In this document: positions 1-10,204 of the stretch, one piece after another
Layout: each line of letters opens with the position of its first letter
Position numbering within the stretch: position 1 is the first letter of the stretch
Origin: Terana coerulea
Lineage: Eukaryota; Basidiomycota; Agaricomycetes; Polyporales; Phanerochaetaceae
Assembly: GCA_024811115.1 (NCBI GenBank)
Contig: JAKOGH010000477.1
Coordinates: 1 to 10,204 of the forward strand
Length of the DNA stretch: 10,204 nucleotides
Direction: 5' to 3'
Notes under the pieces: model-generated
Databases searched by the model: none
Seen by the model: the letters and a program-made list of their open reading frames with translations, nothing else
Told to the model about the DNA's origin: nothing
Program-made: the position numbers and the translations under genes

Positions 1-771
1 GTCTGCAACAGTCGGCGTAATCTGGAAAGTATCAATCAGGCTGCGCCGACGTGATGTTTAGGAATCCACTCACGCTTGCACGAGGTAGCGTCAATACTAG
101 TAAACTCGCGGCTGCTCATAATTGGCTGAATCTGAGTGTCGATGTTGTACGTCTTTGTCATTTTGAATTAGTAGCCTTCCTGGGTGCATGGGCATGATCT
201 CATTCGCTATGCTAGCATAATTCGGTTAGCTATAATCTCCAGGAAGGTCGAGGACGAGGTGTACCAGATGGGCCGTTGGAGAGACCGAAGGCATCAGACA
301 CCACTCGGCGACCGAACATCGACGTTAGAGACAACAAAGAGCAGTCATCGACACTGCAAAATAGCGGACAAGGTAGGGTGTGCCATGGCAGGGCAACCGT
401 ATACCCGTTGTGCTTGCCGCCGAGCGATTTGGGTCTCGGCACTAGGAATGGAGGTCCCTGACTCAGAAGCTTATGGGATCGCTATGAGTATTCAACGGCA
501 GTGAGCGACAGTCCTGCGAAGCATGAATATTGAGGTGCAGGCTGACCAAGAAGACGACCGTCTGCACCGACGTTCCCAGACACATGTCGTAGGGTGGGAT
601 GATCAGACACGGGCTCTTGCGGACTCTCTTGCTACGTGAGGGCGCAGAAGCCTGCCGGAATGGGGCTCATTCGTAGGCATCTAGAAAGCCTTGTTTTGAT
701 GTGCATAGGCGGCAGGGACCGGGGGTTGGTTGTTGCTGCTCGCGGTCATGGGGGCGTTGTGAGCTGGCGCC

Positions 772-795
772 CCAGGGCAAGAACCAGGGCAAGAA
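772..795. repeat. Perfect 12-base tandem duplication
   Basis: CCAGGGCAAGAA occurs twice head to tail (772-783 and 784-795) with no mismatch. It looks like a recent small slippage duplication in non-genic sequence. No function is implied. Confidence 0.8.
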
Positions 796-2178
796 CCCAC
801 ATACAAGGCACCCAACAGATAACACTAATTCCCGCAAAGTCTCTCTTGCGGCAGAGCGAGAGTTCAACGTGCTCTTGCACAGCGAGTTGTAAAGGTCTAA
901 CGTGTCGACACGACGCGGGCGAGTGGTTGGTGGGAACCTGCCTTCCGCGGACTTGCCCCTAACGGTGACTATTGACCGAGTTTGAATTCAGCCTCCATCA
1001 TTTGTCGCAAGCTACTGATAACGCACCCGGTACGTGAGTCTGAGTCTCCATTTACGCGCACGACATGGCCAGAGTGGTCTTCACCTTCAAGCCGACAGTG
1101 GTCGGGAAGAACTAGATGCACTGGAGTTTCCTTCAAGGCGACTGAGCGGGACGAGAGAGATGGTCGTCATCAGTATGACATGGTGGCACGCGTCTCATCA
1201 TTCATGCATGGTGGTTATTCGCGACTACTTCATCTTGAAGATATTGCATACATCCATAGGTTCTATATAAAGCGAATTGCATCGAGGTTGTTAGTGCTAC
1301 TGGAAGAGTCTACAGCGCAGCTGACGTACCTGTCCCCCAAGCTTTAAAAGACTAACAGCTCGTGGCCTCAACTCTGTGCGGTTACCTTCCTAAATACTGT
1401 CAGAGTTCATCTGAGCAGTAAGATATCCTCCTTCCTTACCTCGCAGCTCAACTTTCTATGGGTCTCCGTGCTTGAATCTCGATGCGGAAGCCTGCAGGTT
1501 TTTGTCGCAAGTGTGGAAGCGTGCAGTCCTCGGATCATCGTGCGGCGGTGTGTGTTACGGGTCTGATGACAGCTGCAGTTCAAAACCGTCGCCGGATAGA
1601 GATATTGGTGGAGTATAATGCGGTAGCAGGGAGAAGTCGTCGTGCCATACGCAAATTCGACATGAGCATTGGGAACAAGGGAAGTAGCGCCCGGCTTAAT
1701 GAGTTGCTCTCGACCTCGATGACCGGTCGACCACTTCTACTCAGTTCTACTCCCTGTCTCAAGCCTACCGACAGATCCCCTAATACACGCATTGTCCTGT
1801 CAGATTTCGGTATTTTAGTGTTATTAAGGTACTGTTACTATGCTTACTGCACCCGGACACCACTTGTAGCGTATATAGGTCACTCACATACTTGTACCTA
1901 TCCTCACGCGTTTGCACCCTCTCGGGTGCTGCACACCATCATCTTTACCGTCCTCGACGTTATGCGCAGTGCCCGCGCCGTCCCCAAGACCTTATTTTGA
2001 TATGTCCGATTACACGTCTTGTCTGGCGACGATGCCTAGTACATATCGAATACATGCATGGCTCGTAGCCCACGACGCAGCTTGAACGGCAAGCCTTGAT
2101 TCAGACCAGTCCTGGAGTAGGAGTCACGTCCTCGAGTCCTCAGCCCCAGTACGAGCGCATGGTTCTTGGGCAGCATTG

Positions 2179-2196
2179 CTTGCAGGGAGCTGCAAG
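2179..2196. repeat. Short perfect inverted repeat
   Basis: CTTGCAG and CTGCAAG form 7-base arms around a four-base GGAG loop. It stands alone, without a neighbouring gene or promoter, so it may be chance. Confidence 0.5.
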
Positions 2197-2869
2197 TCAA
2201 TGAGCTCCTCTTGCTAGCTGAACGAGGCCCCGAGCTGCGGTGCTACAAGGACAGGCCCTTGTGGCAAGTTACGGTACGTCTTTACGTCTCTCATTTTCAA
2301 GTTGTTCAAGACTCAAGACTACTTTTCAGACTGAAGAGAAATACAGCGCAGCTCATTGAACGTGAAGAGCAACGCTATTGCGCTTATCTTCAAGGGCCAT
2401 TGACTCGGTCGAAGGTGTTCAGCGCAGGCCGTAATGCGCAAGTCGGCAGCACGCTACGACCACGACAGAGTTCATCGAAAGAGTGTAGAAGTGCAGCGCA
2501 TACAGCGGCGTACACTCCTACCGAGGCCTAGAGGAAGCTAGGATGGTTACTCACCTGTGGGTTGGTTGATACACACGTTAGTGGGTTGAGAGTTGTAAGA
2601 GTCTTGTTAGAGTATGGCGCAGAGGGCTGCCTTATATACAATACTGGGTGGCTGTACTATAAACAGACACAAATAGGTACCAGGACAATAGACAATAGGC
2701 ATCGTCATGGTGGAACCTGGTAGAACAATAGAGAAGATGTGAGCAGAGCGCTTACGGCGTCTATCTGACTCAACAAAGAGGTGGCGAAGTAAGCCTCCTT
2801 ATCTTTGCTTCAATACGGTGTAATTAACGCACGTAGAATTGACTTGCACGCAAGCAGCGTCTGCGTGCA

Positions 2870-3460
2870 TTGCTCTGTGGTCGTGGAAGAATTGGCCAGC
2901 CCATCAATGTCGGCCACAGCTGGGCAACAGCGCTCTTTAAGCCGCTGACGTCGCTGCCCATGGAACAGGTCAGTTTCAGAAAAGAACAGCGTATTTAGGC
3001 AGCGTTCTCTGACCAATGGTACAGAATTCACCTGCTCGTAGCCATTGACGTCTGGCTCAAGACTTCCGACACACCGGCAGCAAATGCATCGGTGCTCAAG
3101 CGGTTCGCACATTTCATCATGGAGGGCGCGGGACGAGCATACGATGTCTCGAAATGAAAGAGGTAAGTGAACGAGGCTGAATTCCACTCGTATCAGTGCT
3201 TACGAGAAGCCCAGTAGATGCTCGCAGTGAAACACACGTGAGTGTGTATTCCGTCTTATGGAGTTTTACTGAGCTTACTTCCGTACACACTTCTAGTGCT
3301 TCTATCCTCATATGTATCATCGGCGATATCGGACCTAGACAGCCTGGTACCGTCAGCGGCATACGTGGACCCACAACAGCGGAAGCAGAATATATGCACG
3401 CGACAACGGATCAACGCGCGAGGAAGTTCGTCTGGGCATATGCGGAGACGGAAAGGTTCA
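2870..3460 (+). mobile_element. Decayed Ty1/copia retrotransposon remnant
   Basis: Seen in order on the plus strand, in shifting frames: an ALW followed by a degraded R-RLG-PSM string near 2871-2915, resembling the LWHRRLGHPS of the GAG-pre-integrase domain; NGTEFT at 3015-3032 with a displaced GAC just before it, matching the integrase SDNGTEF site; WLKTS, TPAAN and IMEGA blocks at about 3050-3130, typical of the integrase core; DLDS...AYV at 3332-3366 and PTTAEAEYM at 3370-3396, typical of copia RNase H; then a W about where RNase H has one. The order integrase then RNase H fits copia, but the roughly 200 bases between them are far too short to hold a reverse transcriptase, so an internal deletion is inferred. 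Frameshifts and stops show it is dead. A TATATA-bearing stretch at about 2556-2700 could be a relic of the 5' LTR, but no matching downstream copy was found. Confidence 0.55.
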
Positions 3461-3469
3461 CCGGTGACT

Positions 3470-3828
3470 GTGTTCCCCTCATAGCGCGAGCAGAGGTGCG
3501 TGTCCTTCCTGCACTCAGTGTCACTAAATCGGCTCACGTCATACACTGCGTTGTAGTATTCACCATTCATTAATGTCCGAGACTGGGGATATTAGTGTAA
3601 CGGATAGCACGTCAAACATGTACAGTAATCTGGCCGACTACGATACAAAGGCAACCTGCGAACTCGATCACGGCCAGCGCGACTTGTGGGACGTCGTGCA
3701 TACAGCGTGAAACTTCAAGAGTCATGGATGCGACATCGCAAAGCGGAGGCTGGTGATGCAAGTCAGCAAGAGATTGAGAAGAAACCAAGTGAAGCGCACC
3801 TGCGGTACTTCGCCAGGAGCTGAAGGCA
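3470..3828. other. Interval with no identified gene
   Basis: This stretch lies between the copia remnant and the 3' end of RNA gene D. The open frame ending near 3573 only continues the decayed RNase H stretch. I see no splice-site chain, tRNA or repeat. The 3' exon of gene D, on the minus strand, should begin at 3828 and run leftwards into this interval; its end cannot be seen. Confidence 0.4.
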
Positions 3829-3993
3829 CTACACGGGCGTTAGCAGTGGACCAACGAAAGAATGAGATTTAGGTGCTGGTTGGTTTCGCTCCCAGTCGGC
3901 GGGAAGACTACGGGAGTTACTCGTCCCGAGGGCCGCGAAGAGGCCGCACCAGGACGGACGTCTCCTCGACGCCCACCCTTCCTCGGGACTTAC
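3829..3993 (-). other. 165-base intron hosting the RNA element in gene D
   Basis: The donor is CAG|GTAAGT, the branch-like site TGCTAAC lies about 12 bases before the TGTAG acceptor, and the total is 165 bases. The homologous intron in gene A is 164 bases. Other introns in this window are 48-60 bases, so these two are about 100 bases longer, the extra being the structured element. The assignment is from sequence alone. Confidence 0.65.
3879..3989 (-). ncRNA. Three-way-junction RNA element, copy D
   Basis: Read on the minus strand. P1 is GTCCCGAG (3989-3982) with CTCGGGAC (3930-3923). P2 has 11 pairs, 3978-3968 with 3962-3952, loop GAGGA. The joint TGGTGC follows, then P3 GGCC/GGCC (3945-3942 with 3934-3931) around TCTTCGC. 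P3 is directly followed by the closing P1 strand, then linker GAGTAA. P4 is CTCCC-gt-AGTC with GACT-GGGAG (3916-3906 with 3897-3889), then C and GAAACCAAC (3887-3879). Copies A and C have the same plan with different but pairing bases. In D and A the whole element lies inside an intron, with P1 starting at intron base 5. I know no family with this layout. Confidence 0.75.
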
Positions 3994-4225
3994 CTGATTG
4001 CTGAGCTCTTGCGCCCTCTTGCGGAACCACCAGTGCTAGGATCGCATGCTGAGTCTTGCGTCTCTCGTCGTGTACGTCGCGGTTGAGGCGGAATCGTAAG
4101 TCTTCTTGTCTTCCGATCTTCTGTGGTGGTCATCCGGCACTGGTCGTGGCTGTAGCATTGACTGTCGGCTGTGAACAGAGGAATCAGAGCGTACACCCTG
4201 ACCGCGCACCTTGCCCTTGCGTGGG

Positions 4226-4263
4226 CCTGCCTGAGAGAAGGGGTGCCACTCCTCGCAGGCAGG
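4226..4263 (-). ncRNA. Long hairpin in gene D exon
   Basis: CCTGCCTG and CAGGCAGG form eight pairs. Inside, AGGGGT (4239-4244) and ACTCCT (4248-4253) form six more around a GCC loop. An outer CGTGGG/CCCACG (4220-4225 with 4282-4287) can extend it. Since gene D is read from the minus strand, the complement forms the equivalent hairpin. It supports an RNA-level role for this exon. Confidence 0.6.
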
Positions 4264-4342
4264 CACCGACACATCCGCCAGCCCACGTGTATCACTGTAT
4301 GAAGGGCGACTGAGGCTGCCGCGTCGGAAGCCGGTGTCGGTG
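4264..4342. repeat. Nine-base perfect inverted repeat in gene D exon
   Basis: CACCGACAC (4264-4272) and GTGTCGGTG (4334-4342) are exact complements 61 bases apart, next to the hairpin at 4226-4263. The lower strand of that hairpin is adjacent, so the two could be alternative or stacked helices of one fold. Confidence 0.55.
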
Positions 4343-4514
4343 GTCTTCACCTGCGGGAGTCTTGCTGCTCAGTGTCCCGCAGACAGCCTCCAGCGATCTG
4401 GACGGTGGCGGTGCGCAGATGAGGGAGGCTAGTCAAGAGGAATAACGAAGAGAAAGCAAAGAGTGGGGGCATTTATACGGTCGGATGCTCCTGGCTGACG
4501 GTGGACGTGACCTT

Positions 4515-4531
4515 GTTTATTCTGAATAAAC
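4515..4531. promoter_or_regulatory. 17-base palindrome, upstream of gene A
   Basis: GTTTATTC-T-GAATAAAC is a perfect 8-1-8 palindrome midway between the D and A TATA boxes. The promoter of gene B holds the related GTTTATTCGCGATAAAC. It is a likely site for a dimeric regulator; which one is unknown. Confidence 0.6.
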
Positions 4532-4619
4532 GAAACTGTGCCCGCCGCCAGCCTCACGTGGCGCCCGTCAGCCTCACACTTCACTGTGACATAGGTCAGT
4601 GACAACCAGCCTCCAGCAG

Positions 4620-4626
4620 TATAAAT
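4620..4626 (+). promoter_or_regulatory. TATA box of gene A
   Basis: TATAAAT within AGTATAAATACC. GTGAC ends 16 bases upstream and CAGCCTCCAG (4607-4616) lies between them. The same grouping is found before gene B. Confidence 0.7.
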
Positions 4627-4994
4627 ACCACCCCATTCACCCTCCAGATTCTCAACACCTCTTGACTAGCCTCCCTCATCTACTGGTCTCTTGCCTCATT
4701 CCCATCTGCCCGACACGCCCACATCCCTCCCCCATACCCGATACCCGACATTCGCCCGCACCTACCAACCCTCGAGTACGCCCGCAGCCCCAGTGGTGCC
4801 CGTAGAGGGAGACCCCGATGACAGATTCCGCGTTGGAGGGCCACGCGAGGCCTATAGCAAGAGGCGAAGACTCTCCTCAATCGGAAGCTCGAGGGCGGAC
4901 AGGGTGCTTAGGTACGTGCACTTCCTTTATCCGACATCGTCGCTGCTGGGCCCTCCGGCGACTCCGCAAGAGAGCATAAGAGCTCGTCAACCAG

Positions 4995-5158
4995 GTATGT
5001 CCCGAGGGAGGGCGAACATGGTCGTGATGTTCGTCCTGGTGCCGGCCTTTACGTGGCCCTCGGGATGAGTACTTCCCGGGTCTTTCGCCTGACTCGGGAA
5101 GGAAACAAACACGCACCGAATTTTTCTATCCTCATTATTTTACGAAGCTAACCTGCAG
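4995..5158 (+). other. 164-base intron hosting the RNA element in gene A
   Basis: CCAG|GTATGT at the start, GAAGCTAACCTGCAG at the end. The length is within one base of the gene D intron although the interior differs at many positions, so length and fold appear constrained. P1 begins at intron base 5, so pairing would tie up bases right next to the 5' splice site. Confidence 0.65.
4999..5109 (+). ncRNA. Three-way-junction RNA element, copy A
   Basis: P1: GTCCCGAG (4999-5006) with CTCGGGAT (5059-5066). Joint GGA. P2: GGGCGAACAT (5010-5019) with ATGTTCGTCC (5027-5036), ten pairs with one G-U. Joint TGGTGCC. P3: GGCC (5044-5047) with GGCC (5055-5058) around TTTACGT. Linker GAGTAC. P4: TTCCCGGGTC (5073-5082) with GACTCGGGAA (5091-5100), ten pairs with one G-U. 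Then GGAAACAAAC. The order, joint lengths and unpaired bases match copies D and C, while the helices differ in sequence and still pair. Confidence 0.8.
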
Positions 5159-5199
5159 CCTGCTACGTCTACGGTCTCTTGACTCCTGGACTCCTGAGT

Positions 5200-5745
5200 A
5201 CCAGCTCATGCGGTGTACTGTGTTGGGCTCCATCCTTCCGTCATCTGTACACTGTACCTTGTAGTGCCGTTTGAAATTCTACGATAACTTCCGTCGTATG
5301 ATGAATTAATGTATGTGGTCGATGAAGCTCACAGGCAGTAAGGTTAAGCTCGGCTATATCTCGGTCCCAGTGAACATGAGCACAATATTACCGCCCAAGC
5401 ACCGAGCCCAAACAGCCGCCTTTTGGTGTTCATCTGCGAGTGAGAATGGTAGAAGCCAGTTTCGACGTATATTCAGACATCAAGAAACGGGTTGCCACAA
5501 ACGGGGCTGCAGAGCCTGCGGACGACTGAAAGGAGAGAACATGGATGAGGACAAAGAGATCTCGCTGGCAGCTTTGTGGCGTACGGCAACCTCCGTCAAG
5601 CGCTCCAGTTCAATCTCCGCCGTAGACGCAACACCCCTCCCGTTCATTTACGTGGGCGGGCTATAGCGCAGTCTGGTATAGATAAGCTCTAATAGTGTTG
5701 CAGCTATGAAATGGTTGAATAAGTGCTAAAAGGCCTGCGGGAAAA
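5200..5745. other. Interval with no identified gene
   Basis: The longest open frame is 5313-5666 on the plus strand (117 codons, ATG start). It has no recognisable domain, no flanking promoter of the type seen for genes A-C and no obvious splice partners. Nothing else is supported here. Confidence 0.4.
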
Positions 5746-5750
5746 GCATG

Positions 5751-5914
5751 GGATCCTGGCCAGCCTCCAGGATCCTCGGCGCTCGCGGCATCTGGGTCCG
5801 AGCCTATTGCCATATGCGGTAGATTGATTGTACTTGTTTGTCCGGCTCGTTTATTCGCGATAAACAAAGCTGGCGCGTCTTTCGCGTGACCTGCCAGCCT
5901 CCAGGCGTATAAAT
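5751..5914 (+). promoter_or_regulatory. Promoter of RNA gene B
   Basis: From left to right: a perfect inverted repeat GGATCCTGG/CCAGGATCC (5751-5759 with 5767-5775) that overlaps a CAGCCTCCAG word (5761-5770); the palindrome-like GTTTATTCGCGATAAAC (5849-5865); GTGAC (5886-5890); CAGCCTCCAG again (5895-5904); and TATAAAT (5908-5914) within GTATAAATACCC. From GTGAC to beyond TATA it is closely similar to the promoter of gene A, and the pyrimidine-rich leader that follows is similar too. Confidence 0.65.
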
Positions 5915-6149
5915 ACCCGGGCTCCCTCACCTTCAGGCTTCACAACTCCTCCTCTCACCTCCTCCATCATCGCCAGCGGTCTCTCAAGAAAGGGGCTCGC
6001 TTGGAGCTTGAGGTCCCTGCCACTCCAGGGTAGTCCGAAGGACAGCTTGGACGTCGTCAAAAACTTTGTAAGTCTTTCCGCTGTTGCGAGGACGGCGGCT
6101 GACTTCTACACACAGAATCATGCATGTACCACAAGGTCATCCGATGGAA

Positions 6150-6824
6150 CTTCGACTAGTTGATCTAGCCTGGAGAGGACCGCTCGTTTGTCCCCAAGGA
6201 CAGTGGAAAGGTCACTCGGGAAAGGCCTGGGTGTAAGCGGAGCTCGTACAGAATCTCCACCGGAGCGGCGAGCCGTATGGCGTCTCGGCCTCAACCAAAT
6301 AGTAAGTCAGTATAGCTCTACTTTGCGGCTCATGATTACTAACCTCGACTGTAGGCAATATGACCCCCGTGCGCATCAGAAACGGCGGCCAGGAGCTTCA
6401 GCTAGTCAATCTGGTTTGAAGAGGACCGCTCATCCGTCCCCAAGGACAGCGGAAAGGTCATCTGGGAAAGGCCTGGGTGTAAGCGGAACTCGTACAGACC
6501 CTCCCCTGGAGCGGCGAGTCGGATAGCGTTTCAGCATCACCCAAATAGTAAGCCTGTATAGATTTTCTTCGTGGTCAATGATTACTAACCTTGGCTGCAG
6601 ATTATAGGACCTCAGTGCGCATTAGAAGCCACGGCTAGGAGCTTCGGCTAGTTGATCTAGCTTGAAGAGGGCCGCTCGTTCGTCTCAGAGTTCGCCAATC
6701 GTCCAGTAAGTTATTAAAGCCTCGCTCATGATTCACGAGTGCTCACTGTCGTGTAGGACGCAGCCTCGTGCGCATGTGCTTCAAGCCAAGGATAGGAACT
6801 TCAGCTAGTTGACCCAGTATGAAA
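6150..6824 (+). ncRNA. Recurrent bulged hairpin in gene B exons
   Basis: Exon 4 (6642-6667) reads CTTCGGCTAG-TTGAT-CTAGC-T-TGAAG: ten pairs around a single bulged T. Exon 3 (6396-6421) changes the 3' arm to CTGGT-T-TGAAG and stays paired through G-U wobbles. Exon 2 (6150-6175) and exon 5 (6799-6824) keep most pairs with one or two mismatches. The loop is TTGAT, TCAAT or TTGAC. Maintenance of pairing in diverged copies points to selection at the RNA level. Confidence 0.65.
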
Positions 6825-6851
6825 CGGATCCGTTCGTACGTCCTCTCGGAC
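6189..6851 (+). ncRNA. GUCC...GGAC hairpins and covarying stem in gene B exons
   Basis: A four-pair GTCC/GGAC stem recurs with different loops: CCAA in exon 2 (6189-6202, five pairs with the outer T-A) and exon 3 (6436-6447), TCTC in exon 5 (6840-6851). Farther on, GCTCG/CGAGC in exon 2 (6242-6246 with 6269-6273) becomes ACTCG/CGAGT in exon 3 (6488-6492 with 6515-6519), a true compensatory change, with an inner CTCC/GGAG stem in both. Confidence 0.65.
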
Positions 6852-7185
6852 CGCGGGAAGAACACCGAGGGACGGTGCAAGGGAACTCGTGCGTAGGTTT
6901 CCCGAGAGCGGCGTGTCGTACTGTGGCTTTTCAACTACAACGCGGTAAGTTTTGATACTGCCTTGAATAGCTCGGTGCTAATCTCGAGTGCGCTCAGATT
7001 ATGTTCCGGCTTACACTCTCTGAGCCGTTCGGTCACTCATCTCCTTCCGTATACCAACTAATGGCCTTCTAGATTGTCTGTAGACTAAGCTGTACCGGTC
7101 TCTTTCGCATCGTCGTCAAGCCGGGGGTCTCGCTACTTTCACCCACTCTAGAACTTGAAGGTAATTTCTCCAGAGTTTCACTGTA

Positions 7186-8763
7186 TCATCCTACTCTGTA
7201 GCTCTTAGGAATGTACAGTACACGCCCTGTAGTAAATAAAGCATAAATAGTTGTCTCATTATCACGCTTGCTCGATTGAACAGTCGCGGATGTGTAACAC
7301 CTGTTTCTCCATAACGCTATCGTCGTCCTCTGCCGTTCCCTGTAGCGTCGAAGACCCAATGCTGTAACTCCGTCTATGCCTTGAACGCGCACAAGTGTGG
7401 AATTCCCTCGGCTGTGGCTTAAGTAAGGTGCGGGTGCGGGTACGGGTGCGGGGACAGGCATAAATGCCTGAGGCTCGTGGTGGAAGATACCAAGCTGTGC
7501 TGTAATCAGACATTGGGAGATGCCCTGTGGGGTGAAGTGTCAGATTGGACACGCTATGTGACCGGCGGTAGACTTACGAAAAACACGGGGATTATGCATA
7601 TCATCACATATCCAACATTAAGGTCCGTCTGTCAAGCGAATTGAGCCTTGCAAGATAAGAAAATAATGGGAAGCACTCACGGTGATGTGTCCCTCCGGTG
7701 CCAGGGTCGCAATTTCGTACAGTACGAGACCGCCCCAGGTCACCGCAGCCGACTCCACAATAGCTTCCGTCAGCGTACTCAGATGGCCATCTCCAGTTCC
7801 TCCAACCCTCCCTCTAGTTTGTCGTTTAACGTACCTACAAAATACAACATCAGTGGTGGTCGTGGGTTACAGCGAACGGAGACCTCTTACACAATCCTAC
7901 CAACGATGGCGCCGGTGAGCAAAGTGTTGTTTACGAGCATCGCGTATCCCCAGGCGGCGTTTACCGTGAAGGCTGTCTTCTGGTAGTAGGCGTTGTACTT
8001 GGTGATGCTGTGGTAGACGGCTAGGTACTGAAAGTCTCCAGCAAAGCCGAGAACTAACCAACAGTCGTAGATTTTTAGATCGTGTAGACAAGGAGGGTTG
8101 GTAAAACGCACGCGAGTTAACGAGTACCGCTACGGCGGGAACGTAAATGCCCACCGAGGGCGTCCGTAGATGACATAGAGCCGCCACGCTAACAATCCGT
8201 CCGATAGCAAGCCCTTCATCGTCCGCATCAGTAGGGGCTGAGCTAAGGAAATGAAATGTTTATACAGCGAGTGTCGTAGTCAGACTAACAGTGAGCCTCG
8301 TTAGCTAAGATTATTCAAGAGTGAAGCAACGCTGAACCACTCACCTGGATACGAAAACAACTGGTACGTACCACGCCGTTTCAGCATCAGCGGGCTGATG
8401 AAGCAAGCGGCGCTGCCCAAGCGTCAGCGCTCGCATGATGTAGTGTATCAGAAGCACGACGAATCTGCGCTCGATACATCAGCATGCAAAAATCACCGCC
8501 GAGCTGCGTGTTGCCTACAAGCATATGGTCACGGCGCGGAGTACTGTGCTTAACCGGTCGCTCCGGCGGAAGGTAGACCGCATAGCGAAGACGAAGAGTA
8601 CGCAGTATGCACCTGTATCGAAGTGGTTAGATAAGCGGGAGTAAGGGAGACGTTAGCTGCCACATACCAAAAGTGCGCTGAGAGCGGAGAAGACAACTAC
8701 TGTGATAGATAAGACTTGGAAGGACCCCTCCAAGGCAGAGGTGGCTGCCTGCGTGGACGCCAT
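7186..8763 (-). CDS. Basidiomycete multipass membrane protein, function unknown
   Basis: Exons on the minus strand: 8763-8664, 8612-8519, 8464-8345, 8284-8112, 8053-7891, 7834-7681, 7628-7578, 7524-7186 (397 codons plus stop). The ATG at 8763 follows a pyrimidine-rich stretch and starts MASTQAATSALEG. Introns are 51-60 bases; several have CTAAC- or CTGAY-like branch sites. The first donor must be GTGGCA to keep frame; GTATGT four bases earlier looks better but shifts it. Family signatures, by my recognition: YCVLFVFAMR, LIHYIMRAL, LLSDGLLAWRLYVIYG, NNTLLTGAIVGRIVYVKR, AIVESAAVTWGGLVLYEI and FGISQCLITAQLGIF, giving about seven membrane spans. The tail is rich in Pro-Ala (PVPAPVPAPAP). Anomaly: in the exon 8284-8112 the frame entering and leaving meets TAA at 8262-8260, while the family motif lies one base off and meets TAG at 8132-8130. 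That implies two compensating indels: a pseudogene or sequence errors. It converges on gene B and diverges from gene C. Confidence 0.8.
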
Positions 8764-9030
8764 CACAGACAGGGAGAGATAGAAACTTGGGTGTATTCGC
8801 GGTCCCTGCAGCTGGTAGTTAAGAACAGATCTCCATTGAGGCTGTATACGGGAACGTTATGAGCGATGGCTAGCAATAGCGCACAACTCCGGAAAGCTAA
8901 CCTGATACCTCGTCAGCGCTCATAGAATGGTGCGAAACAGAAGACCCATCATCAACCCCACACTTGTCCGCCCAACTTGGGACTGCTGGTGGACTGCATC
9001 CGTCGGTGATAGGTAACATACCGCGGCTGA
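8764..9030. other. Intergenic region between the membrane-protein gene and gene C
   Basis: Divergent spacer between the ATG at 8763 (minus) and the promoter of gene C (plus). No TATA box of the RNA-gene type was seen on the minus strand. Open frames here on the minus strand run through the gene C promoter and have no recognisable domain. Confidence 0.5.
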
Positions 9031-9037
9031 CAGTCTC

Positions 9038-9065
9038 GTGACTGCCCGCCGCACAGAGTATAAAG
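9038..9065 (+). promoter_or_regulatory. Promoter of RNA gene C
   Basis: GTGAC (9038-9042) lies 16 bases before TATAAAG (9059-9065), the same spacing as in gene A (16) and gene B (17). The intervening bases are C-rich, as in the others. The 17-base palindrome is absent; a weaker GGTA-ACA-TACC inverted repeat lies at 9012-9022. The leader about 38 bases after TATA (CCTCTCACC) resembles that of gene B. Confidence 0.55.
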
Positions 9066-9143
9066 CAAGCCTCTGCTCTGCTGTTAACGAAAGCCAGAGC
9101 CCGCCTCTCACCGCCGCGATACCCCCTTCCTCCCCTCTCTCTC

Positions 9144-9543
9144 AGGGTTCGCCCTTCATCGTGGATGGCGTTGGCGGCTTGGGGGTTCGCCCTGCGTCGG
9201 GGTTCGCCTCGCCGTCCGCTGTACGCCACTTCTTCTGTCTCAGGGTTCGCCCTTCATCGAGATCGGCGGTGGTGGTTTGGGGTTTGCCCTGCGTCGGGGT
9301 TCGCCTCGACGTCCATCGCTCGCCAGTCTCTTTCTTCCGGGGTTCGCCCTTCATCGACGATGGTGTCGGCGGTTTAGGGGTTCGCCCTGCGTCGGGGTTC
9401 GCCCTGGCGTCCGCTGTATGCCACTTCTCTCTCTCAGGATTCGCCCTTCGTTCAGGCTGGCGGTGGCGGTCTGGGGTTCGCCCTGCGTCAAGGTTCGCCT
9501 TGTCGTCCATCACTTTCCAGTCTTTTCTCTCAGGGTTCGTCCT
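9144..9543 (+). repeat. 97-base tandem array of UUCG-tetraloop hairpins
   Basis: Thirteen hairpins start at 9144, 9182, 9198, 9242, 9279, 9295, 9339, 9377, 9393, 9436, 9473, 9489 and 9532. Twelve have a TTCG loop; the one at 9279 has TTTG. There are three per unit: AGGG/CCCT or GGGG/CCCT, GGGG/CCCT, and a five-pair stem. The third stem covaries between units: CGGGG/CCTCG, CGGGG/CCCTG and CAAGG/CCTTG. The last hairpin has AGGG/TCCT, paired through G-U. One hairpin (9436) has an A-C mismatch next to the loop. Four full units and one partial unit are present, with units 1 and 3 more alike and units 2 and 4 more alike. Confidence 0.85.
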
Positions 9544-9658
9544 CGGCGTCCTGCTTTCTTGTCAAGATTCCAGTGTGTGTCACTGCGGGGGACGCCCCGT
9601 GTGTGGTCGTAGCCCGGTCTCTGTAGATACTCCGCCTGTTGTCCTCGCTCCAATGTAT

Positions 9659-9759
9659 TCTCGGCGGAGGGCAGCCACTTGTTGCTGCTCCTGGCACGAC
9701 CTCTTCGCGGTCGCCGGGACGAGTACTCCTCGGGTCTGACCCCCGAGGACGAAACTAAC
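9659..9759 (+). ncRNA. Three-way-junction RNA element, copy C
   Basis: P1: TCTCGGC (9659-9665) with GCCGGGA (9713-9719), a different sequence from copies A and D but fully paired with one G-U. Joint GGA. P2: GGGCAGC (9669-9675) with GCTGCTC (9684-9690), seven pairs including a G-U. Joint TGGCAC after the base at 9691. P3: GACC (9698-9701) with GGTC (9709-9712) around TCTTCGC, a compensatory change from GGCC/GGCC. Linker GAGTAC. P4: TCCTCGGG (9727-9734) with CCCGAGGA (9742-9749), then C and GAAACTAAC (9751-9759). Confidence 0.8.
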
Positions 9760-9800
9760 TTGTGCCAAAGCTTCAGTGTACTTCCATAGCTTGCAAAAAT

Positions 9801-10204
9801 AGATCTTGCTCATATTCGCCAGCTCCTTTCCACAATTCTCGTGAGCCGTGTCCTTCTCAAATGACCGTTGGTTGTATTTACCTTAGTTCTCTCTCGCGTT
9901 CCGACATTATGATTCCTGGCCAGGGGCCAAACACAGTCATTGGAAGTCGAGGCAATGCTAAGGCCAGCCAGTTCAACTGACTCATCCTGCAGCCCATCGC
10001 ACGAGAGCTTCGCGAAGAGGCAAAGTATTGGCGTCGGCCAGTCTGCGTCTCTATCATTGCGCTCGGTTCCCTGACCAGTGGAGAGTTGCTGTCAGAAAGA
10101 AAAAGTCAGTCCCCTCAGCGTGAAAATAGCAACAAGCGGCAGGCGTACGTTATATCCGCAGACCGATTAGCAGCTAAGTACACCTCTCTTAGATGGTTGT
10201 ATTG
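9801..10204. other. Terminal interval with no identified gene
   Basis: It holds open frames up to 72 codons without recognisable features and no further copy of the RNA elements. The 3' end of gene C may reach into it. Confidence 0.4.

Follow-up and report, generated by a model that had tools for sequence, protein, structure and literature searches.

Hepatitis delta virus (HDV)-like ribozymes, whose helix P1 has 7 base pairs (bp), are the closest described counterparts of an RNA element present in three copies, named A, C and D, in a stretch of 10,204 nucleotides (nt) of the basidiomycete Terana coerulea (assembly GCA_024811115.1, contig JAKOGH010000477.1, positions 1 to 10,204); this whole stretch is called the window below. 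In fungi, Li and Breaker described in 2017 a set of 230 HDV variants from 26 species and showed in vitro cleavage for two of them; according to the sections of their paper used here, these variants are marked by a loop E within P4, by a first pair that is typically C-G, and by one extra nucleotide separating P2 from P3 (PMC5640933). The ribozymes of R2 retrotransposons, according to the cited part of PMC3774820, have the HDV-like fold, lie at the 5' end of a reverse transcriptase element, and possess a variable joint J1/2 that is sometimes very long. The mammalian CPEB3 ribozyme, an HDV-like fold in a spliceosomal intron of one gene, has its cut site 9931 nt upstream of the exon that follows; in the cited sections of PMC10919898 its cutting affects splicing, an antisense block of the intronic Cpeb3 ribozyme raises the host spliced mRNA, and fast ribozymes put into introns are cited as lowering splicing.

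The Terana coerulea copies share with the fungal variants, as far as the cited sections of PMC5640933 describe these, the nested pseudoknot, a P4 that is partly a loop E, a pyrimidine-purine first pair of P1 and, in copy A and in 33 of the 36 copies of a second set defined below, the extra nucleotide separating P2 from P3. They differ from them in their U-A first pair and in the absence of the extra nucleotide from copies D and C; compared by the same published description, they also carry a long covarying J1/2 hairpin, and 59 of 100 distinct copies sit on a site resembling a splice donor. Because of the U-A first pair, we file them as a separate variant and do not count them simply among the members of the published fungal consensus. 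With the ribozymes of hepatitis delta virus itself they have in common the strand order, the 7-bp P1, the loop L3 and the CNAA core, whereas a 4-bp P3, a weaker P1.1, the loop E and the J1/2 hairpin set them apart. Judged by their sequences, the copies form a new variant within the HDV-like class and not a new RNA class. In contrast to the single distant cut of CPEB3 (PMC10919898, sections cited above), the cut predicted here would fall inside the donor itself, and at dozens of loci. The HDV-type fold is known; what is new is a ribozyme that starts on a splice-donor-like AG/GURNGU in 59 of 100 copies.

An earlier note, made from the letters of the window, had described the element at 3989-3879 (D, minus strand), 4999-5109 (A) and 9659-9759 (C), with the layout P1, a GRA joint, an inner hairpin that it named P2 and that is the J1/2 hairpin here, then UGGYRC, a P3 closed by a UYUWCGY loop, P1' abutting P3', GAGUAM, P4 and SGAAACNAAC. 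Copies and layout were found as it had placed them. The parts of each copy, with the P2 strand that we add, are as follows.

4995..5158, plus strand: predicted intron of copy A, from AG/GTATGT (4995) to a branch-like CTAAC (5148-5152) and the acceptor CAG (5156-5158); the ribozyme occupies most of it.
5000-5006 with 5059-5065, plus strand: P1 of copy A, 7 bp, UCCCGAG with CUCGGGA.
Between 4999 and 5000, plus strand: predicted cleavage of copy A, by analogy with HDV ribozymes.
5010-5018 with 5028-5036, plus strand: extra J1/2 hairpin of copy A, indicated by covariation.
5037-5042 with 5113-5118, plus strand: P2 pseudoknot of copy A, UGGUGC with GCACCG.
5044-5047 with 5055-5058, plus strand: P3 of copy A, closing L3 UUUACGU (5048-5054).
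5068-5071 and 5102-5104, plus strand: loop-E-like AGUA and GAA of copy A, flanking P4 (5072-5101).
5106, plus strand: predicted catalytic C of copy A in J4/2 (CAAA, 5106-5109), part of 5068..5110.
3829..3993, minus strand: predicted intron of copy D, from AG/GTAAGT at 3993 to CTAAC (3843-3839) and the acceptor TAG (3831-3829).
3871..3988, minus strand: ribozyme of copy D, with P1 3988-3982 paired to 3930-3924 and the J1/2 hairpin 3978-3970 paired to 3960-3952.
3951-3946 with 3876-3871, minus strand: P2 of copy D (second strand GCACC(U)); P3 is 3945-3942 with 3934-3931, and L3 is 3941-3935.
3921-3918 and 3887-3885, minus strand: AGUA and GAA of copy D, with the predicted catalytic C at 3883.
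Between 3989 and 3988, minus strand: predicted cleavage of copy D, by analogy with the HDV class.
9659..9767, plus strand: ribozyme of copy C, with P1 9659-9665 paired to 9713-9719 and the J1/2 hairpin 9669-9675 paired to 9684-9691; no splice donor stands in front (AAUGUAU/UCUCGGC).
9692-9697 with 9762-9767, plus strand: P2 of copy C (second strand GUGCCA); P3 is 9698-9701 with 9709-9712, and L3 is 9702-9708.
9722-9725 and 9751-9753, plus strand: AGUA and GAA of copy C, with the predicted catalytic C at 9755.

The UGGYRC joint had been taken as unpaired, and no known family had been recognised in the element. Both statements failed on a strand beyond the ends then assigned: GCACC or GUGCC begins three letters past CNAA and pairs with UGGYRC, forming P2. 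With this strand the order becomes P1, J1/2 hairpin, P2, P3, L3, P3', P1', J1/4, P4, J4/2, P2', which is the nested pseudoknot order of HDV-like ribozymes and identifies the family; the loop E is shared with the published fungal variant. What survived of the proposed new structured RNA element was therefore a structured, covarying RNA with many copies in the same genome, and what fell was its status as a new class. Nested folding alone cannot reveal the pseudoknot; its z-scores were mixed (A −4.3, D −1.4, C −2.5).

The search covered a single genome (48.4 megabases, 896 contigs). BLAST with copies A and C as queries, both containing P2', returned at least 40 matches each. A covariance model of 32 sequences, trimmed before P2', gave 77 full-length matches in 60 stretches; from 84 model matches in all, 5 weak partial ones, 2 internally deleted ones, 12 same-score duplicates (judged by eye) and 1 identical copy were removed, leaving 64 distinct aligned copies, the first set. 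As the BLAST queries contained P2', this set was not blind to the letters of P2. The second set was drawn with patterns blind to P2: GGGAYRAGTAN{15,40}GAAACNAA, which occurred at 111 places genome-wide, and one including L3, which occurred at 77, the reversed control giving 0 for each. Thirty-six distinct copies, in 34 stretches chosen among the pattern places listed (100 of 111), bring the total to 100.

In the first set, 94.0% of 2151 cells of the whole structure were paired, against 35-49% when the partners were slid by 1-3 columns, and the covariation score was 0.468, a value reached by 0 of 500 shuffles, against 0.251 after shuffling; the number of further pair types was reached by 7 of 500. 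Two-sided changes, of the kind that the earlier note had seen in its three copies, occurred in 24 of 34 pairs, and the paired cells amounted to 97.8% in P1 (7 bp; the cut at its 5' end is predicted by analogy), 96.0% in the J1/2 hairpin (two-sided changes in 6 of 9 pairs), 98.8% in P3 and 85.5% in P4. The five inner pairs of P2 were formed in 313 of 320 cells (22-47% when slid). The second set, collected independently of these letters, gave 176 of 180 cells (26-58% when slid), with all five pairs intact in 33 of 36 copies, and the 100 copies together gave 489 of 500. Among 16 P2 haplotypes, which include GGUGC/GCACC, GGCAC/GUGCC, GGCGU/ACGCC, GGCAU/AUGCC, GGCGC/GCGCC, GGCGG/CCGCC, GAUGC/GCAUC and GACAC/GUGUC, 73 of 80 cells paired, a number that none of 300,000 reshufflings equalled (mean 62.9, highest 72). 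The three window copies are real, structured RNAs with covariation in every helix, the P2 pseudoknot included.

The unpaired core was also conserved over the 64 copies. L3 read UYUNCGY in most of them with U, U and G invariant, the columns of the reverse-wobble U and G among these; the role of these two letters in the HDV-like reverse wobble is described in the cited part of PMC3774820. J1/4 carried AGUA in 61 of 64 copies and GAA was found in 64 of 64. J4/2 read GAAAC-NAA, with the predicted catalytic C of CNAA in all 64; its presence in the 36 second-set copies follows from the construction of the search pattern. AGUA and GAA together form what we take to be the loop-E motif. Rfam 15 offered no relevant match: two weak ones elsewhere in the window, with E values of at most 5 and scores well short of the gathering threshold, and none up to E 1 in 20 loci. 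A transfer RNA identity was rejected, no such match being obtained. The collections scanned for homologues in another genome were viral or prokaryotic, and none was shown there: a P3 plus P1' pattern gave 0 viral matches, a donor-plus-P1 pattern 0 viral and 1 bacterial, and a looser core pattern 3 viral. These four matches are attributed to chance, since the model found only two fragments there (E 0.26 and 0.91).

In 59 of the 100 distinct copies, A and D among them, the start of P1 coincided with position +6 of an AG/GU site or adjoined it. Within these 59, the letters were A at -2, G at -1, G at +1 and U at +2 without exception; +3 was A in 40, G in 18 and U in 1, +4 was C in 34, A in 13, U in 9 and G in 3, +5 was G in 58 and +6 was U in 57. 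Donor-type copies had been selected by GU in the first set; in the second, a purine at +5 and a pyrimidine at +6 were required in addition to GU (listed by eye, then confirmed by expression); -2 and -1 entered neither selection. On a tree built from the ribozyme body, with the donor and upstream columns left out, the least numbers of changes were 0 at -2, -1, +1 and +2, 1 at +5 and 2 at +6, compared with 11 at +3, 9 at +4 and, for every position from -12 to -3, between 8 and 14. Constancy from -2 to +2, a purine at +3 and a free +4 are the profile of a splice donor and not the result of shared descent alone. A CTRAY branch-like motif followed by YAG within 75 nt of P2' was present in 32 of 37 donor-type copies of the first set, the predicted introns measuring 162-185 nt, against 0 of 27 donor-less copies of that set and 9.5% of random stretches from the same loci. 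With a 130-nt window the figures were 30 of 37 donor-type, 1 of 23 C-type and 0 of 4 R1-type copies, and 16% of random stretches.

The 41 donor-less copies comprised 30 of C-type (UGUAYUC lead), 6 of R1-type (CUUCCCCGAG or near) and 5 others. Diverged ribozymes at L084, L086, L089, L091 and L099 had no donor and no C-type or R1-type lead; the inner P2 was paired 5/5 in the last four and broken in L084. Seven loci (L030 with its near-copy L032, L033, L040, L043, L096 and L105) held tandem ribozymes about 310 nt apart, the donor-less one (CUUCCCCGAG or near) first and the donor-type one second. A second donor-like site, AG/GTACGTG at 4912-4918, preceded the donor of copy A by 83 nt and was kept as AG/GTRCGTG in eleven aligned A-type copies.

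Copies A, D and C are probably HDV-type ribozymes that cut themselves before P1, and, with P1 beginning at +6, cutting of A and D would likely compete with splicing. If they cut like other ribozymes of the HDV class, their scissile bond would be 5' of P1, in A and D between +5 and +6, so that self-cutting would destroy the donor. We infer that the loci are transcribed, that their RNA is cut at U+6 and that the spliceosome in fact splices from the donor. We propose the following model. U1 small nuclear RNA would pair with the same donor letters, and the U1 ribonucleoprotein lying over +5/+6 would shield the cut site; if U1 were not engaged in time, P1 would close onto U+6 and the RNA would be cut between +5 and +6, the transcript then being lost or ending at the cut. 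Each transcript would be either spliced, with removal of the ribozyme, or cut, with removal of the donor. The donor-less C-type copies would simply cut their own RNA, window copy C doing so downstream of a repeat array. The extension of this model to the whole genome is put forward tentatively: a family of ribozyme-introns, dozens in number, in which the 5' splice site of a spliceosomal intron would at the same time be the cut site of an HDV-type ribozyme, and in which the race between U1 binding and P1 folding would act as a timer.

Several observations weigh against the reading as cutting ribozymes in introns. P1.1 was weak: its best candidate, L3 position 2 with J1/4 position 38, was a standard pair in 82 of 106 copies, the other 24 having C-A or C-C. 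The first pair of P1 was U-A in 59 of 64 copies and broken in 5, where the fungal variant typically has C-G, and the extra nucleotide of that variant is missing from D and C. Two near-identical copies (L041 44-150 and L042 1260-1366), which lack everything from within L3 through the end of P4, had no core. An inner P2 pair was broken in 6 of 100 copies, one of which (L084) was also without a donor. The copies are related by descent, so that neither the cells nor the haplotypes counted above are independent. Branch and acceptor were found in only 6 of 22 second-set donor-type copies; set against the 32 of 37 of the first set, this indicates that the donor is general and that the acceptor is clear in part of the copies.

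The weak P1.1 and the unusual first pair of P1 would also suit a structured intron or non-coding RNA that has kept an HDV-like fold and lost cleavage, the fold hiding the donor from U1, presenting it, or binding a protein, and the J1/2 hairpin is kept as well as the catalytic helices. We regard this as quite improbable, because the predicted catalytic C is found in 64 of 64 first-set copies and the U and G of L3 are retained; moreover, donor-less copies share the same core, whose conservation splicing alone would not explain. These donor-less copies lend themselves to another explanation, in which the ribozymes trim the 3' end or the precursor of a non-coding RNA and AGGURNGU is only the upstream substrate strand: C-type copies have no donor, copy C follows short UUCG-hairpin repeats (9135-9535), and in seven loci a donor-less ribozyme precedes the donor-type one by about 310 nt. 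However, HDV ribozymes are not known to depend on a particular sequence 5' of the cut, the C-type copies carry a different one, and the constant -2 to +2, the purine at +3 and the free +4 follow the pattern of a donor; trimming is an unlikely account of them.

A retroelement origin, the ribozymes being part of a non-long-terminal-repeat-type or non-autonomous element and freeing its 5' end from a co-transcript, has in its favour the many dispersed copies, the likeness of upstream sequence inside subfamilies and at least 150 scored reverse transcriptase matches in the genome; in R2, HDV-like ribozymes serve in this way (PMC3774820, cited part). In contrast to R2, no reverse transcriptase lay within 5 kilobases (kb) of a ribozyme among the places listed; ten contigs held both, the nearest pair being about 6 kb apart (contig C121), with distances read by eye from lists. 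There was no reverse transcriptase among twenty frames scanned against Pfam, TATAAA stood within 480 nt upstream of 11 of 37 first-set donor-type copies, and the donor letters were constant where the flanks varied. A retroelement origin thus appears improbable, and competition between self-cutting and splicing is the reading that we prefer.

The A and D units are divergent, and each window copy is preceded by a TATA box.

4620..4625, plus strand: TATAAA, the likely (predicted) promoter of the A transcript, 375 nt before the A donor.
4472..4477, minus strand: TATAAA, 484 nt before the D donor.
9059..9064, plus strand: TATAAA, about 600 nt before copy C.

A perfect 24-nt inverted repeat (4417-4440 and 4658-4681) is located between the divergent units. 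In the A unit, a little upstream of where exon 1 ends, a hairpin GUCGCYG..CGGYGAC was visible at 4939-4962 and also in A-type relatives; in L026 it is replaced by GCCGUC..GACGGC, a two-sided change. A protein-coding exon as the identity of the element was ruled against by the absence of a Pfam match for nine window frames and by exon-1 alignments of eleven A-type copies, in which insertions and deletions were not multiples of three; host transcripts in the window accordingly look non-coding. A short conserved RKRAEEL-like frame at the exon end was rejected, a stop in copy A breaking the frame.

Elsewhere in the window, a TATA-led unit at 5908-7140 consisted of tandem repeats of about 246 nt at 6146, 6392 and 6638 and a shorter one at 6783; they resemble structured exons parted by GTAAGT..CTAAC..AG introns and had 18 matches on six contigs. 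The segment 9135-9535, which lies downstream of the TATA box and ahead of copy C, carried an array whose repeats were rich in GGG-UUCG-CCC, every one of which could fold into a small UUCG hairpin. At other loci, the ribozyme of L030 ended about 370 nt before the ATG of a short-chain dehydrogenase frame, and a CHAT-domain reading frame (L019, 3254-3769, minus strand) was found near two ribozymes. The gene content of the genome included the STE3 family (23 matches) and hydrophobins (107 matches, exon-sized pieces being counted separately), both of which are fungal families, in keeping with a fungal source.

In the open-access literature, to which the search was confined with subscription papers and preprints outside its scope, no natural ribozyme with its cut inside a 5' splice site was found among the entries listed, and no Rfam model detects the present subtype at the thresholds used. 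The finding bears on the role of HDV-like ribozymes in cellular genomes. With more than 100 pattern matches, and 59 of 100 sampled copies on a donor-like site, the question of ribozyme versus spliceosome would be readable from ordinary RNA sequencing, and it may be addressed by a single-nucleotide change in a minigene.

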